64,000 nt of DNA, taken from the NCBI GenBank assembly GCA_016235425.1, contig JACRLC010000010.1:1-64000 (forward strand), read 5' to 3'. Position 1 is the stretch's first letter. The number at the start of each line of letters is the position of its first letter. The position numbers were made by a program, and so were the translations under genes. The notes below the pieces were generated by a model. That model searched no databases. It was given only the letters and a program-made list of their open reading frames with translations, and had not been told where the DNA came from. Positions 48,958 through 54,323 of the stretch are shown piece by piece. The stretch comes from Chloroflexota bacterium (GTDB taxonomy: Bacteria > Chloroflexota > Anaerolineae > Anaerolineales > Villigracilaceae).

Positions 48958-49884
48958 TTAGAACCAATCTCGCTTGTAGAAAATGTAGGTTGCAATCGCC
49001 GTAAGCCCAAACGCAATGCCAAGCACGTTGAGAAACGCGAAAGGATGACTCTCGCCGGGCAGCACAACATTCATGCCGTAAAACGACGCGACGATGGCCG
49101 GCATGTTCAGGATGATCGTCAGCGCGGCGAGGGCCTTCATGACGCCGTTGAGGTTGTTGGAGATAATGCTGGCGAAGGCGTCCATCATGCCCGAAAGGAT
49201 CTCTGTGGCGATGCTGGTCATTTGGATGGCCTGCTGGTTTTCGGTGAGCACATCTTCGAGCAGGTCCTGGTCTTCCTCGTAGTAGTTGAAGAGCTGTGTT
49301 TTCTGGACGCGTTCCATCATCACTTCGTTGGAGCGGAGCGCGGTGGCGAAGTAGGTGAGGCATTTCTGGTATTTCAGCAGTTCGAGCACTTCGCGGTTGC
49401 GCGTGGACTTTTGCAGTTGGTCTTCAACCGCTTCGGTGGCGCGGTTGATCTCGCGCAGAAGGTTCAAATAGCGCGCGGCAGTTTCGAGGAAGATGTAAAG
49501 CGCAAGACGATAACGCTTGCCGGTTTTGAGCAGGCGGTATTTTCCGTTGGCAAGCACTTTAAAAATGTCGCTGTCATAACGGCATATCGTGACAATCACG
49601 TTCCCCAAAATCATGATGCCGAGAGGCACGGTGGAATAAGGGATGTCGCTTTCGGGCTGGTGAATGGGAATGCGAAGCAGGATGAAGGTGTAATCATCAT
49701 CCCGTTCCATGCGAGCCATTTCATCCTGGTCGAGGGAATAGTTGATGTAATCCGCTTCCACTCCCCAATTCATCAACTTTTCGATTTCTTCGGGCGTCGG
49801 GTCAACTGCATTGACCCAGGCGCCATTGACCATTGTTTCGAGTTTTTCGAGCCCCGCCTCGGTGGTCTTGTAGATGTGGAGCAT
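48958..49884 (-). CDS. corA: CorA-family magnesium/divalent cation transporter
   Basis: 308 residues. A cytosolic funnel domain, a long helix, then two C-terminal membrane segments at about 250-270 and 285-303, with the selectivity motif YGMNV near 274. It lets Mg2+ (or Co2+/Ni2+) into the cell as a pentamer. AAGGAGG precedes the ATG. A 160-nt structured leader with competing hairpins lies upstream. The SMP-30 gene follows directly. Confidence 0.93.
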   Translation of the reverse strand: MLHIYKTTEAGLEKLETMVNGAWVNAVDPTPEEIEKLMNWGVEADYINYSLDQDEMARMERDDDYTFILLRIPIHQPESDIPYSTVPLGIMILGNVIVTICRYDSDIFKVLANGKYRLLKTGKRYRLALYIFLETAARYLNLLREINRATEAVEDQLQKSTRNREVLELLKYQKCLTYFATALRSNEVMMERVQKTQLFNYYEEDQDLLEDVLTENQQAIQMTSIATEILSGMMDAFASIISNNLNGVMKALAALTIILNMPAIVASFYGMNVVLPGESHPFAFLNVLGIAFGLTAIATYIFYKRDWF

Positions 49885-50046
49885 GGCTGCCTCCTTGCGT
49901 GAAAGTTCATCACGCAGAGGGCCGCTCCACGTGATGGTTTATAACAAACTTAATGCGTGCCATCCGCCCATACTGGGCGGCTGTTTATCAGAAGAACCTA
50001 GGTCGCTCTCGTCCGTGTGATACATGGTTTCCTTACCGTTCATGAT
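49885..50046 (-). promoter_or_regulatory. Structured corA leader, candidate riboswitch
   Basis: The leader holds a CCGCCCA-GTA-TGGGCGG hairpin (49980-49964). Nearer the gene, hairpin A pairs CATCACG (49936-49930) with CGTGATG (49914-49908), while hairpin B pairs GCGTGA (49915-49910) with TCACGC (49902-49897), which touches the AAGGAGG ribosome-binding site. A and B share the same bases and exclude each other. I do not recognise the M-box or another named class. Confidence 0.55.
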
Positions 50047-50052
50047 GTGACT

Positions 50053-50081
50053 ATTTTACGCCGGATATTTGAATCGGACAA
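50053..50081 (-). promoter_or_regulatory. Promoter of corA
   Basis: TTGTCC (50081-50076), 17 bp, TAAAAT (50058-50053) on the minus strand, about 170 bases before the ATG. Confidence 0.5.
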
Positions 50082-50095
50082 CCTACAAAAACATT

Positions 50096-50895
50096 TCATT
50101 TCGACTTGCGCGCGTGGACGATAAAAACGCGATGCGGAATTTGAAACAGCGGATGACCATCCGCATCGCGCGTGACCTGGGCCTGCTCCCGTTTTTCAAG
50201 CAGTGACTTTAACTCCGAGTCGAATCTCCCCACCTCCTCGTCCGAAAGACTCGCCCCAACCCCCGAACTCGCGCGGACGCATCCGCGCCATGCTTCGGCA
50301 GTGTAGGGGACATCCATATCGAATGAAAAGGTTTTGATTTCAATGAAATCTGCTTCGCCGAGGTCGCGAAGCCACTGCGGGTAAACTCCCGTTTTGTTTC
50401 CAAAGCGGCCGTACCAGGCGGGGTTGTATTTTTGAATCGGTTTTTCCGTCACGTCAACAACGTTATCTGTGAGCGGAAGCCAGTCGAAATGCGCGATGAG
50501 GACGCGTCCGTCAGGCTTGAGAATCCTCCTCGCCTCCCCTGCCGCGCGTGGACGGTCGAACCAATGCCAGCATTGCCCCGCGGACACAACATCGAAAGAC
50601 GAATCGGGCAAGCCGGTCTCTTCGGCGGGGCCGCGCGGAACTCTGCGTCGAGTCCAGCCTGCCTGCTGAGCTCGCGTGCCTGCTCCAGCATCTGCGCGGA
50701 GACATCGAGACCGGTCACTTTGCAGCCTCGCGCCGCGAATCCGCGGGCGAGTGTGCCGGTTCCGGTTCCCAAATCCACGAGTGAGTTGCCCGCCTTCACG
50801 ATTCCCTCGTCGAAGACGCGCTCGAAGAATGCACGCGGGAATCCGGCGCGGTGTTTGGCGTAGTCGTTGGCCGTCAGGCCGAAGTCAATGGTCAT
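50096..50895 (-). pseudogene. Frameshifted SAM-dependent methyltransferase
   Basis: The first frame (from the ATG at 50895) gives the SAM-binding core LVDLGTGTGTLARGFAARG near 39 and GLDVSAQML; after a shift in the GC run at 50623-50638 the protein continues in another frame as SSFDVVSAGQCWHWFDRPRA to the stop at 50096. Together they make a complete class I methyltransferase of about 265 residues. A one-base loss in the GGGG run would explain it; a sequence error is possible. Confidence 0.75.
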
Positions 50896-51779: not shown

Positions 51780-52505
51780 TCAAATGGAAGCATGTGCGAA
51801 AAATTCCGCAACCTCCGCGCTCGCCGGAGCCGACCGGATATGCCCGGGCAGTCCCACTTGTTGAATACTGGAATTCAAAAAAATTGCCATGCGAGTCGCC
51901 AGTTTTTCAGCCTCCATAATATTGTGCGTGACGAACAGTGTCGTTGCGCCTGTTTCGGGCAGGAGAACACGCAGGTCATCCAGAAGCCTTGAACGGGTGG
52001 GGGGATCGAGCGCGGAAAAAGGTTCATCGAGCAGGAGCAGTTGCGGTTCCAACACCAAAGCGCGCGCCAGGCTCACGCGTTGCGCCTCGCCTCCCGAAAG
52101 CTCGTTCGCGCGGCGCGCCTTCAAATGCGCGATGCCCAGCCGTTCCAGCCACTTTTGCACGCGCGGCCCAATCTCATCTTTGCAGACGCCCCGAAACCGA
52201 AGACCGATGGCGACATTTTCATAAACCGACGTATCGAACAACAGCGGGTCCTGCATCACAAGCGCCAGCCGCCGACGATAAACCGCGTCCGACTCCGCCC
52301 GGGCCTGCTCACCGTTAAACAGAATTTGTCCATGCTCAAAGCGGACCAGCCGCGCCAGCGCCAGCAGGAGCGTACTCTTGCCCGCGCCATTCGGTCCAAC
52401 CACGGCCAGCACGTCCCCGCGCTCGATATCCAGCGACTCGACCTGTAACGCGATTTTTTCGCCGCGCTTTACCACCAGGCTGCGGATTTGAACCAGCGTG
52501 TTCAT
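51780..52505 (-). CDS. tupC: Tungstate ABC transporter ATP-binding protein
   Basis: 241 residues. Walker A GPNGAGKSTLLLALA near 36, Q-loop VMQDPL near 82, signature NELSGGEAQRVSLARAL near 137, Walker B LLLLDEPFSALDPP near 157 and the H-loop FVTHNI. It powers the TupB channel. Its ATG overlaps the tupB stop (ATGA). The operon order tupABC with a TupA-type binding protein supports tungstate as substrate; molybdate cannot be excluded. Confidence 0.88.
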   Translation of the reverse strand: MNTLVQIRSLVVKRGEKIALQVESLDIERGDVLAVVGPNGAGKSTLLLALARLVRFEHGQILFNGEQARAESDAVYRRRLALVMQDPLLFDTSVYENVAIGLRFRGVCKDEIGPRVQKWLERLGIAHLKARRANELSGGEAQRVSLARALVLEPQLLLLDEPFSALDPPTRSRLLDDLRVLLPETGATTLFVTHNIMEAEKLATRMAIFLNSSIQQVGLPGHIRSAPASAEVAEFFAHASI

Positions 52506-53155
52506 CGTTTCGCTCCGCGTTGCTGAATCAATGTCAATGCCCAGTTGACGAGGAACGTGATCACTAAAAGCAGAATGGCGAGTGCGATGGCGAGGTCGAA
52601 ATTGCCCTTGCCGGTTTCAAGCACGATGGCTGTGGTCAATACGCGCGTTTGAAAGCGAATGTTTCCACCCACCATCATGGACGCGCCGACTTCTGAAATG
52701 ACAGCGCCGAACCCTGCCATCAATGCGGCCAACAGGGGCAGGCGGGCTTCATGCCATAGTTTCAAGATCATTTGCACTCTGGATGCGCCGAGCCCGAGCA
52801 GTTGCAGTTGAAAACGCGGATCGAGGGCCTGCAATGCCGCGGTGGTGAGTCCGGTCACGACCGGAAACGCGATCACAACCTGGGCGATGATGATGGCTGA
52901 AGGAGTGTAGATCAACTTCAAACCGCCAAGCGGCCCCGAACGCCAAAGCATGAGCGCCACAAACAGACCGACAACCACGGGCGGCAATCCCATGCCGGTA
53001 TTGACGATGCTCAACAAAAAGGAGCGCCCCGGAAACTTGCCCAACGCCAATACAGTACCCAGAGGCAATCCGATCACCAGGCTGATGAAGGTGGCAAGCG
53101 CCGAGATTTGAAGAGATAGAAATGTGATTTGCCAGGTTTCAGGGTCTAGGAACAT
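52502..53155 (-). CDS. tupB: Tungstate ABC transporter permease
   Basis: 217 residues with five to six membrane segments and the BPD_transp_1 EAA loop around GLGASRVQMILKLWHEARLP near 122. It pairs with TupC and TupA. The start follows a strong hairpin located between tupA and this gene; GAAACTTAAAC before the ATG gives no clear ribosome-binding site, which suggests lower translation than tupA. Confidence 0.9.
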   Translation of the reverse strand: MFLDPETWQITFLSLQISALATFISLVIGLPLGTVLALGKFPGRSFLLSIVNTGMGLPPVVVGLFVALMLWRSGPLGGLKLIYTPSAIIIAQVVIAFPVVTGLTTAALQALDPRFQLQLLGLGASRVQMILKLWHEARLPLLAALMAGFGAVISEVGASMMVGGNIRFQTRVLTTAIVLETGKGNFDLAIALAILLLVITFLVNWALTLIQQRGAKR

Positions 53156-53163
53156 GTTTAAGT

Positions 53164-53193
53164 TTCAGGGGCAGTCATAACGACTGCCCCTGA
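53164..53193 (-). terminator. Intercistronic hairpin between tupA and tupB
   Basis: CAGGGGCAGTC-GTTAT-GACTGCCCCTG on the minus strand, 11-bp perfect arms with no T-run after it. It more likely protects the tupA message or partly attenuates than ends transcription. Confidence 0.65.
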
Positions 53194-53208
53194 GTAAAGG
53201 CTATTTTA

Positions 53209-54150
53209 TTACAAACCTAAATCTGCATCGGTCTTATCGGCATCGGGATGGAAGAGCGGCTGGCCGAATTCTTCAACGCCAAACTGCCCAATGAGCTCCT
53301 GCGTGGCTGGATCAATGATGAAGTTGGCGAAGGCAAGCGCGCCTTCATAATTAACCTTGGGCCATTTGTCGGGATTCACGGTGATGACGTGATAGACATT
53401 CAGCAAGGTATTGTTGCCTTCGAGCAGGATTTCAAGCTGAACATTGCCCTTGTTGGCAAGGTAGGTGGCGCGGTCGGTGAGAATGTAAGCGCCCTTCTCG
53501 GAAGCAACAGTGAGCGAAGCACCCATGCCCTGTCCCGTTTCAATGTACCAGGCCTGTCCCTTGGGATCAAGCTCGGCCTTCGTCCAGAAGCTCAATTCCT
53601 TTTTGTGCGTGCCGGAGTCATCGCCGCGTGAGACGAACGGCGCGGCGGCATTATAAATGGCAATGAAAGCATCTTTGGGGCCGAGTTCTTTGATGCCCGC
53701 AGGATCATCCGCCGGGCCGACGATGATGAAGTCATTGTGCATGACGAGCATACGATCCTTGCCAAAGCCGCCGTCCATGAAGGTGACTTCGGAGGAGGGG
53801 GCATGGACGAGCAGGACATCGGCGTTGCCTTCTTCGCCCATCTTGAGCGCTTCGCCGGTTCCGACGGCGATGGTTTGGACGGTGTAGCCAGTCTGTTCCT
53901 GGAACATGGGCACAAGCACATCGAGCAAACCGGAATCCTGAGTGGAGGTGGTGGTGGCGAGGATCAGGGTCGGGTTGGCGGGCGCTTCGGTTGGCGCTTC
54001 CGTAGTCGGGGCCTCGGTGGTAACAGGGGCTTCGGTCCCCTGCGGGGATGATATAACGGGAGCAGCCGTCGGCGCGGCCGATCCGCAAGCTGACAACACG
54101 AGGGTAAGGGCCAGGCTGAAAGTGAGGAACAATTTGGTCATGCGGGGCAT
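53209..54150 (-). CDS. tupA: Tungstate-binding lipoprotein
   Basis: 313 residues. Lipoprotein signal with lipobox LSAC (C22), a Thr/Glu/Pro linker, then the PBP-like domain opening LATTTSTQDSGLLDVL, the hallmark of TupA proteins, and GGFGKDRMLVMHNDFIIVGP near 130. It binds tungstate outside the membrane for TupBC. Tungsten uptake fits aldehyde or formate-type tungstoenzymes of anaerobes, none of which is in the window. AAGGAG lies about 12 bases before the ATG at 54150. Confidence 0.9.
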   Translation of the reverse strand: MPRMTKLFLTFSLALTLVLSACGSAAPTAAPVISSPQGTEAPVTTEAPTTEAPTEAPANPTLILATTTSTQDSGLLDVLVPMFQEQTGYTVQTIAVGTGEALKMGEEGNADVLLVHAPSSEVTFMDGGFGKDRMLVMHNDFIIVGPADDPAGIKELGPKDAFIAIYNAAAPFVSRGDDSGTHKKELSFWTKAELDPKGQAWYIETGQGMGASLTVASEKGAYILTDRATYLANKGNVQLEILLEGNNTLLNVYHVITVNPDKWPKVNYEGALAFANFIIDPATQELIGQFGVEEFGQPLFHPDADKTDADLGL

Positions 54151-54323
54151 TCTCACTCGTTCTCCTTGTGTAAGATTTTCAATTAAGGGAAAACTTAATT
54201 GTAAGCAAGTATAAATCAAATACTCCCAGAGTGGAATATCCTTAAGTTCGGTTGTTTTTATTAGCCAGGGGGAGATTGCCTGTACCTTCGACCAGGTTCA
54301 CGCCGAAGGGGAGATCCTGTAAG

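Follow-up and report, generated by a model that had tools for sequence, protein, structure and literature searches.

A conserved upstream reading frame and two competing hairpins suggest a ribosome-operated, probably Mg2+-responsive attenuator in the corA leader of Anaerolineales

Background

How Mg2+ is sensed by way of ribosome stability during translation has been worked out, in the studies cited here, for the enterobacterial leaders mgtL and mgtQ and, less clearly, for corL. Acidic residues that are closely spaced near the N-terminus stall or dissociate ribosomes of E. coli, MgtL being one of the peptides concerned (PMC11282234), and ribosome drop-off on acidic peptides is suppressed by high Mg2+ (PMC9718836). 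The mgtL-mgtA leader of E. coli and Salmonella (PMC11282234, PMC11552253) contains an upstream open reading frame (uORF) with early acidic and proline codons, the translation of which is sensitive to low Mg2+; its output is Rho termination. In the corL-corA leader of Salmonella and E. coli (PMC11552253), a uORF, which has a UUG start in E. coli, is combined with two mutually exclusive structures and Rho-dependent termination. In Salmonella mgtQ, acidic codons and mutually exclusive alternative stems release the ribosome-binding site of mgtB, and the conserved proline works via base pairing, not as a residue (PMC8092293). The M-box (ykoK leader, RF00380) provides Mg2+-linked control of Mg2+ transport genes by means of a 169-position aptamer, and the corA RNA motif, a conserved structured leader proposed as a riboswitch candidate, is reported solely in Gammaproteobacteria (PMC6429828).

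The corA gene described here lies in a 64,000-nucleotide stretch of DNA from a member of the Anaerolineales (Chloroflexota), referred to as the window. Its leader is probably a ribosome-operated translational attenuator, for which low cytosolic Mg2+ is the likely signal; all support for the switch is comparative and computed. The closest mechanism would, by analogy, be the Salmonella mgtQ-mgtB attenuator: in both cases a short acidic uORF is combined with alternative stems, which hide or expose the Shine-Dalgarno (SD) sequence of a Mg2+ transporter gene, control is at the translational level, and completion of the uORF is expected to repress. However, mgtQ has 8 codons, is located inside the mgtCBRU operon and uses a 1:2 stem, whereas the corA uORF has 28 codons, is situated in a 5' leader, comprises a Pro-Pro-Ser hairpin and has its stop codon within or beside the switch stem; moreover, the peptides are unlike and the phyla differ. 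The Chloroflexota leader shares with corL-corA the uORF in the corA leader, the two exclusive structures and the expectation that corA expression is inverse to uORF translation, but its conserved platform hides the SD sequence. With mgtL-mgtA it shares the early acidic and proline codons, which read DESD...PPS and not EPDP as in MgtL, and with the gammaproteobacterial motif the presence of a conserved structured leader before corA. A sequence relation of the Anaerolineales uORF peptide to MgtL, CorL or MgtQ appears undetectable, and the leader is most likely a convergent variant among the uORF-controlled leaders of Mg2+ transporter genes. A conserved, apparently unrelated case in Chloroflexota would suggest that ribosome-based reading of Mg2+ arose more than once, and it offers a natural series of about 80 variants of a single short peptide for asking which residues cause ribosome drop-off at low Mg2+. 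Our literature search did not find an earlier report of such a leader in Chloroflexota, which is not proof that none exists.

Results and discussion

The corA locus and its relatives

48958-49884, minus strand: corA, coding for a 308-aa CorA-family transporter (Pfam CorA, 1.7e-53)
49890-49896, minus strand: corA SD sequence AAGGAGG, the GGAGG of which is invariant in 63 leaders

The CorA protein of the window does not reach the TIGR00383 equivalog cut-off; its nearest solved structures are 4cy4 and 4ev6. Upstream of the corA leader, a SAM-methyltransferase-like gene (50096-50895, minus strand) is split into two overlapping frames (50449-50895 and 50096-50611), which suggests a frameshift near 50600 or an assembly error. 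Genes for a substrate-binding protein, a permease and an ATPase at 51780-54219 (minus strand) look like those of a tungstate/molybdate-type ABC importer. Two relatives possess a second, distant CorA paralogue near corA (G026:C22:10493-13147 and G034:C70:12076-14692).

The upstream regions of CorA orthologues, obtained by whole-genome search and from genome contigs, comprised 92 different sequences; the majority carry Anaerolineales or Chloroflexi in their titles, and most have CGTGA...TCACGCAAGGAGGC in common near the start codon. The alignment comprised 63 representative, diverse Anaerolineales (Chloroflexota) leaders carrying a two-hairpin element; many leaders are closely related, and counts of leaders are thus counts of non-independent events. 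In a minority class (L015, L016, L018, L019, L023, L105 and similar leaders), the peptide is kept and a clear hairpin pair is absent.

An upstream reading frame and its promoter

49939-50025, minus strand: uORF of 28 codons, MYHTDESDLGSSDKQPPSMGGWHALSLL, with coding selection; stop codon TAA at 49941-49939
50030-50034, minus strand: SD sequence AAGGA of the uORF
50053-50081, minus strand: sigma70-type promoter predicted from sequence, -35 TTGTCC at about 50081-50076 and -10 TAAAAT at 50058-50053
49964-49980, minus strand: hairpin of the Pro-Pro-Ser codons, CCGCCCA-GTA-TGGGCGG, with conserved pairing

To judge from its substitution pattern, the uORF is under coding selection and of the translated type. 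The pN/pS ratio is 0.39 in frame, compared to 1.22 and 1.41 in the other frames; codons 2-15 alone, i.e. the part of the uORF outside the Pro hairpin, give 0.49 (bootstrap 0.39-0.62) versus 1.08 and 1.25 out of frame. A uORF with a P-P-S-type motif is present in 78 of the 92 leaders, and six more leaders have an acidic uORF without P-P-S. An SD-like motif is present before the uORF in 55 of 78 leaders, and 64 of 76 leaders have the -10-like sequence TA[AC]AAT upstream of it (3.7 expected from shuffles). Because the latter sequence is located just upstream of the uORF, the mRNA probably starts there, and in the window transcription would be expected to begin near 50046. When the genomes were searched with a profile of the peptide, strong E-values were obtained solely before corA; borderline matches elsewhere (L182 and L184) were, by eye, devoid of a transporter context.

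A close acidic pair, [DE]x0-1[DE], occurs within residues 2-12 in 77 of 84 uORFs, as compared to 10% of 341 ordinary N-termini, while the remaining seven uORFs lack such a pair. The uORFs thus have close acidic residues within the first ~30 residues, a property associated with intrinsic ribosome destabilisation (PMC11282234); with about four D/E, their acidic stretch is less extreme than those on which most drop-off assays were done. Since acidic N-terminal stretches destabilise ribosomes more at low Mg2+, low cytosolic Mg2+ is the likely signal.

Pro-Pro is nearly invariant in the 78 uORFs, and Pro-Pro-Ser occupies codons 16-18. A first-pass annotation of the window had listed a stable CCGCCCA hairpin upstream of the competing stems; this hairpin is present (49980-49964), and it arises where the mRNA encodes Pro-Pro-Ser, within a uORF which that annotation had missed. 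In 72 of 76 leaders, at least four of the nine PPS bases are paired; at the wobble position of the first Pro codon, the pair is G-C in 43 leaders and T-A in 16. CCTCC, which occurs in some Pro codons, was considered as an anti-SD sequence and rejected, as it is not conserved in the window. Near-invariance of Pro-Pro, with its codons within a conserved hairpin, would also be consistent with a proline or EF-P sensor, in which a shortage of EF-P activity or of charged tRNA-Pro makes ribosomes pause at Pro-Pro-Ser, as in Salmonella mgtP, with Mg2+ as an indirect signal. We regard such a sensor as unlikely: the six leaders without Pro-Pro keep early acidic residues, the use of AGT for Ser, together with the pairing, suggests that conservation is partly due to RNA structure, and the conserved Pro of mgtQ likewise acts via pairing (PMC8092293).

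Two competing hairpins

49908-49936, minus strand: hairpin 1 (anti-sequestering, ON), 49936-49925 pairing with 49919-49908
49890-49920, minus strand: hairpin 2 (SD-sequestering, OFF), 49915-49910 pairing with 49902-49897, extension 49920-49916 with 49894-49890

Hairpin 1 of the window has the sequence CATCACGTGGAG-CGGCC-CTCTGCGTGATG (49936-49908, minus strand), and the core of hairpin 2 reads GCGTGA-TGAACTT-TCACGC (49915-49897, minus strand). The strand CGTGA is common to both, as the first-pass annotation had recognised, and at least six paired bases are reused by both hairpins in all 63 leaders. That annotation also correctly had the first hairpin leave the SD sequence free, whereas its second hairpin, described as merely ending beside the ribosome-binding site, in fact pairs with it: the extension CCTCT:GGAGG involves the GGAGG of the corA SD sequence, and at least two of the five SD bases are paired in 63 of 63 leaders. 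Sequestration of the SD sequence in one of two exclusive stems, as in mgtQ-type leaders, is therefore predicted throughout the alignment. An extra helix in the window pairs GTGGAGC with GCTCCAC at the corA start. A T run after hairpin 1 is absent from the window.

Folding far exceeds chance, and both hairpins are under selection. When the segments were folded alone, mean z over the 63 leaders was -4.0 for hairpin 1 and -3.9 for hairpin 2 (-4.2 and -3.4 in the window alone), compared to +0.3 for the region just upstream of hairpin 1, and the mean energies of the two hairpins were nearly equal (-18.4 and -18.6 kcal/mol). Separate folding was the decisive test, after pairing of the SD sequence in its full context had exceeded that with shuffled upstream sequence only modestly (0.80 versus 0.68). 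In hairpin 1, both-side changes affect 8 of 10 pairs, 89% of the cells are paired, and 34 cells show both-side changes versus 10.4 in shuffles. Covariation of hairpin 2 in the 63-leader alignment is weak because the SD sequence is fixed, and the RNAalifold consensus contained hairpin 1 only, as expected for two exclusive folds. A covariance model (R1) applied across 298 class members gave nine strong matches, all of them before corA; weaker matches did not have corA nearby and look like chance. The alternative stems are thus conserved across related corA leaders, supporting the assumption of the first-pass annotation that the leader is a conserved regulatory switch on corA.

That the switch is a riboswitch, the folded leader binding Mg2+ (or Co2+, Ni2+, Mn2+) directly and shifting the hairpins without a ribosome, had also been proposed. 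Mutual exclusivity and near-equal energy of the hairpins would be compatible with this, as would a downstream gene whose product moves divalent metal. However, the loops of hairpins 1 and 2 vary in length and sequence, so that no aptamer is visible, and since an aptamer-like, conserved unpaired core is absent, the proposal is not supported; besides, the stretch before hairpin 1 is unstructured and freely variable, and the conserved 5' part consists of codons. A cmscan search of the window with 4227 Rfam families gave zero matches at gathering scores, and a chance-level single match at E up to 10. In agreement with the earlier opinion that the element is neither an M-box nor of the mgtA type, no match to the mgtA/mgtL leader family was obtained, and the M-box (RF00380) was absent from the window as well as from the whole genome (G000); it was found in two control genomes and six relatives. 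We consequently give direct metal binding little credence. Control of corA by metal, most likely Mg2+, is nevertheless likely, exerted via the translating ribosome.

Coupling of ribosome position to SD access

Of the 63 leaders, 42 have the uORF stop codon inside the 5' arm of hairpin 1 (typically ATC ACG TAG), and a further 15, including the window, have it at most 12 nt before this arm, giving 57 of 63 in which it lies in or just before the arm. In the other six it is in the 3' arm, where the direction of control is ambiguous. In leaders L086, L093, L110, L120, L102 and L020, the uORF crosses hairpin 1 to end in the 3' arm, and the C-termini of such uORFs often consist of Pro-Pro plus one residue. 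In L086, L093 and L110, no more than about 9 nt separate the -10 box from the uORF start codon; these uORFs may be leaderless.

With hairpin 1 formed, the mean cost of opening the SD sequence is 3.8 kcal/mol, compared to 10.0 kcal/mol with its 5' arm hidden, the hidden arm being a stand-in for a ribosome at the uORF stop codon; the cost is higher by more than 1.5 kcal in the latter state in 62 of 63 leaders. The contrast for the window, 6.1 versus 8.1 kcal/mol, is the smallest among the listed examples, because the SD region of the window also pairs with the corA start. Accessibility of the SD sequence in equilibrium folding did not differ between states, the mean free fraction being 0.17 with the ribosome at Pro-Pro and 0.15 with the ribosome at the stop (i.e. 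mostly paired), and was replaced by the state-specific opening cost. Failure of equilibrium folding to separate the states implies that the model needs ordered, co-transcriptional folding, with hairpin 1 formed first.

The components of the proposed attenuator, namely the ORF, both hairpins and their common bases, the pairing of the SD sequence, the placement of the stop codon and the promoter, are shown by comparing the sequences. A conserved uORF of the translated type is found upstream of a Mg2+ transporter gene (CorA by Pfam), together with alternative structures that are, as computed, coupled to ribosome position. The mRNA would begin just upstream of the uORF, the peptide of which opens with the closely spaced acidic residues DESD, followed by Pro-Pro-Ser. 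A ribosome that completes the uORF would come to rest at its stop codon, which overlaps or closely precedes the 5' arm of hairpin 1; hairpin 2 could then form and pair with the corA SD sequence (OFF). Drop-off or stalling within the acidic/proline stretch would instead let hairpin 1 fold first and take up the anti-SD strand, leaving the SD sequence open and corA ON. Drop-off, its Mg2+ dependence and the direction of control are what we infer for the corA leader. Alternatively, translation of the uORF might merely hold the leader open, without any signal, as might be suggested by those members of the minority class (L016, L018 and L023) in which the uORF stop is 12-15 nt from corA and a clear hairpin pair is absent. 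Such simple translational coupling is very improbable, as it would not require two isoenergetic exclusive hairpins with such placement of the stop codon.

M-boxes and distant forms of the uORF

In one relative (G007), a 124-bit M-box is present directly upstream of the corA uORF, and this tandem arrangement provides independent support for Mg2+ as the signal. The order of elements (L024:1116-1281; G007:C20:85568-85733) is M-box, terminator-like hairpin and corA uORF, i.e. two Mg2+-linked devices in series. Conservation of the peptide exceeds its acidic content, e.g. in the S-S-D spacing, which would fit a dedicated arrest peptide in which D-E-S-D...S-S-D...P-P-S stalls the ribosome on a signal other than Mg2+, either a ligand or a state. 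This seems improbable, given that matches with strong E-values occur solely before corA and that M-boxes of the same families serve genes for Mg2+ transport, one of them standing in tandem with the uORF. Returning to the Mg2+-responsive attenuator, we consider it an even chance that a nascent-peptide Mg2+ sensor arose independently in Anaerolineales, in which D-E-S-D...S-S-D...P-P-S would abort translation at low Mg2+ and flip an isoenergetic switch at the corA SD sequence, in one lineage behind an M-box.

Other M-boxes in relatives precede genes which, judged by eye, resemble those of MgtE-type and P-type ATPase transporters. Short uORFs with Glu-Pro-Pro-stop or Leu-Pro-Pro-stop ends occur before corA in L158 and L031, which represent other families of the order; their peptides, MNEDHIQTESDPLQSSSEPP and MRRKKKPGNEDPGSSSRLPP, are encoded behind terminator-like hairpins and are possibly a distant form of the corA uORF peptide.
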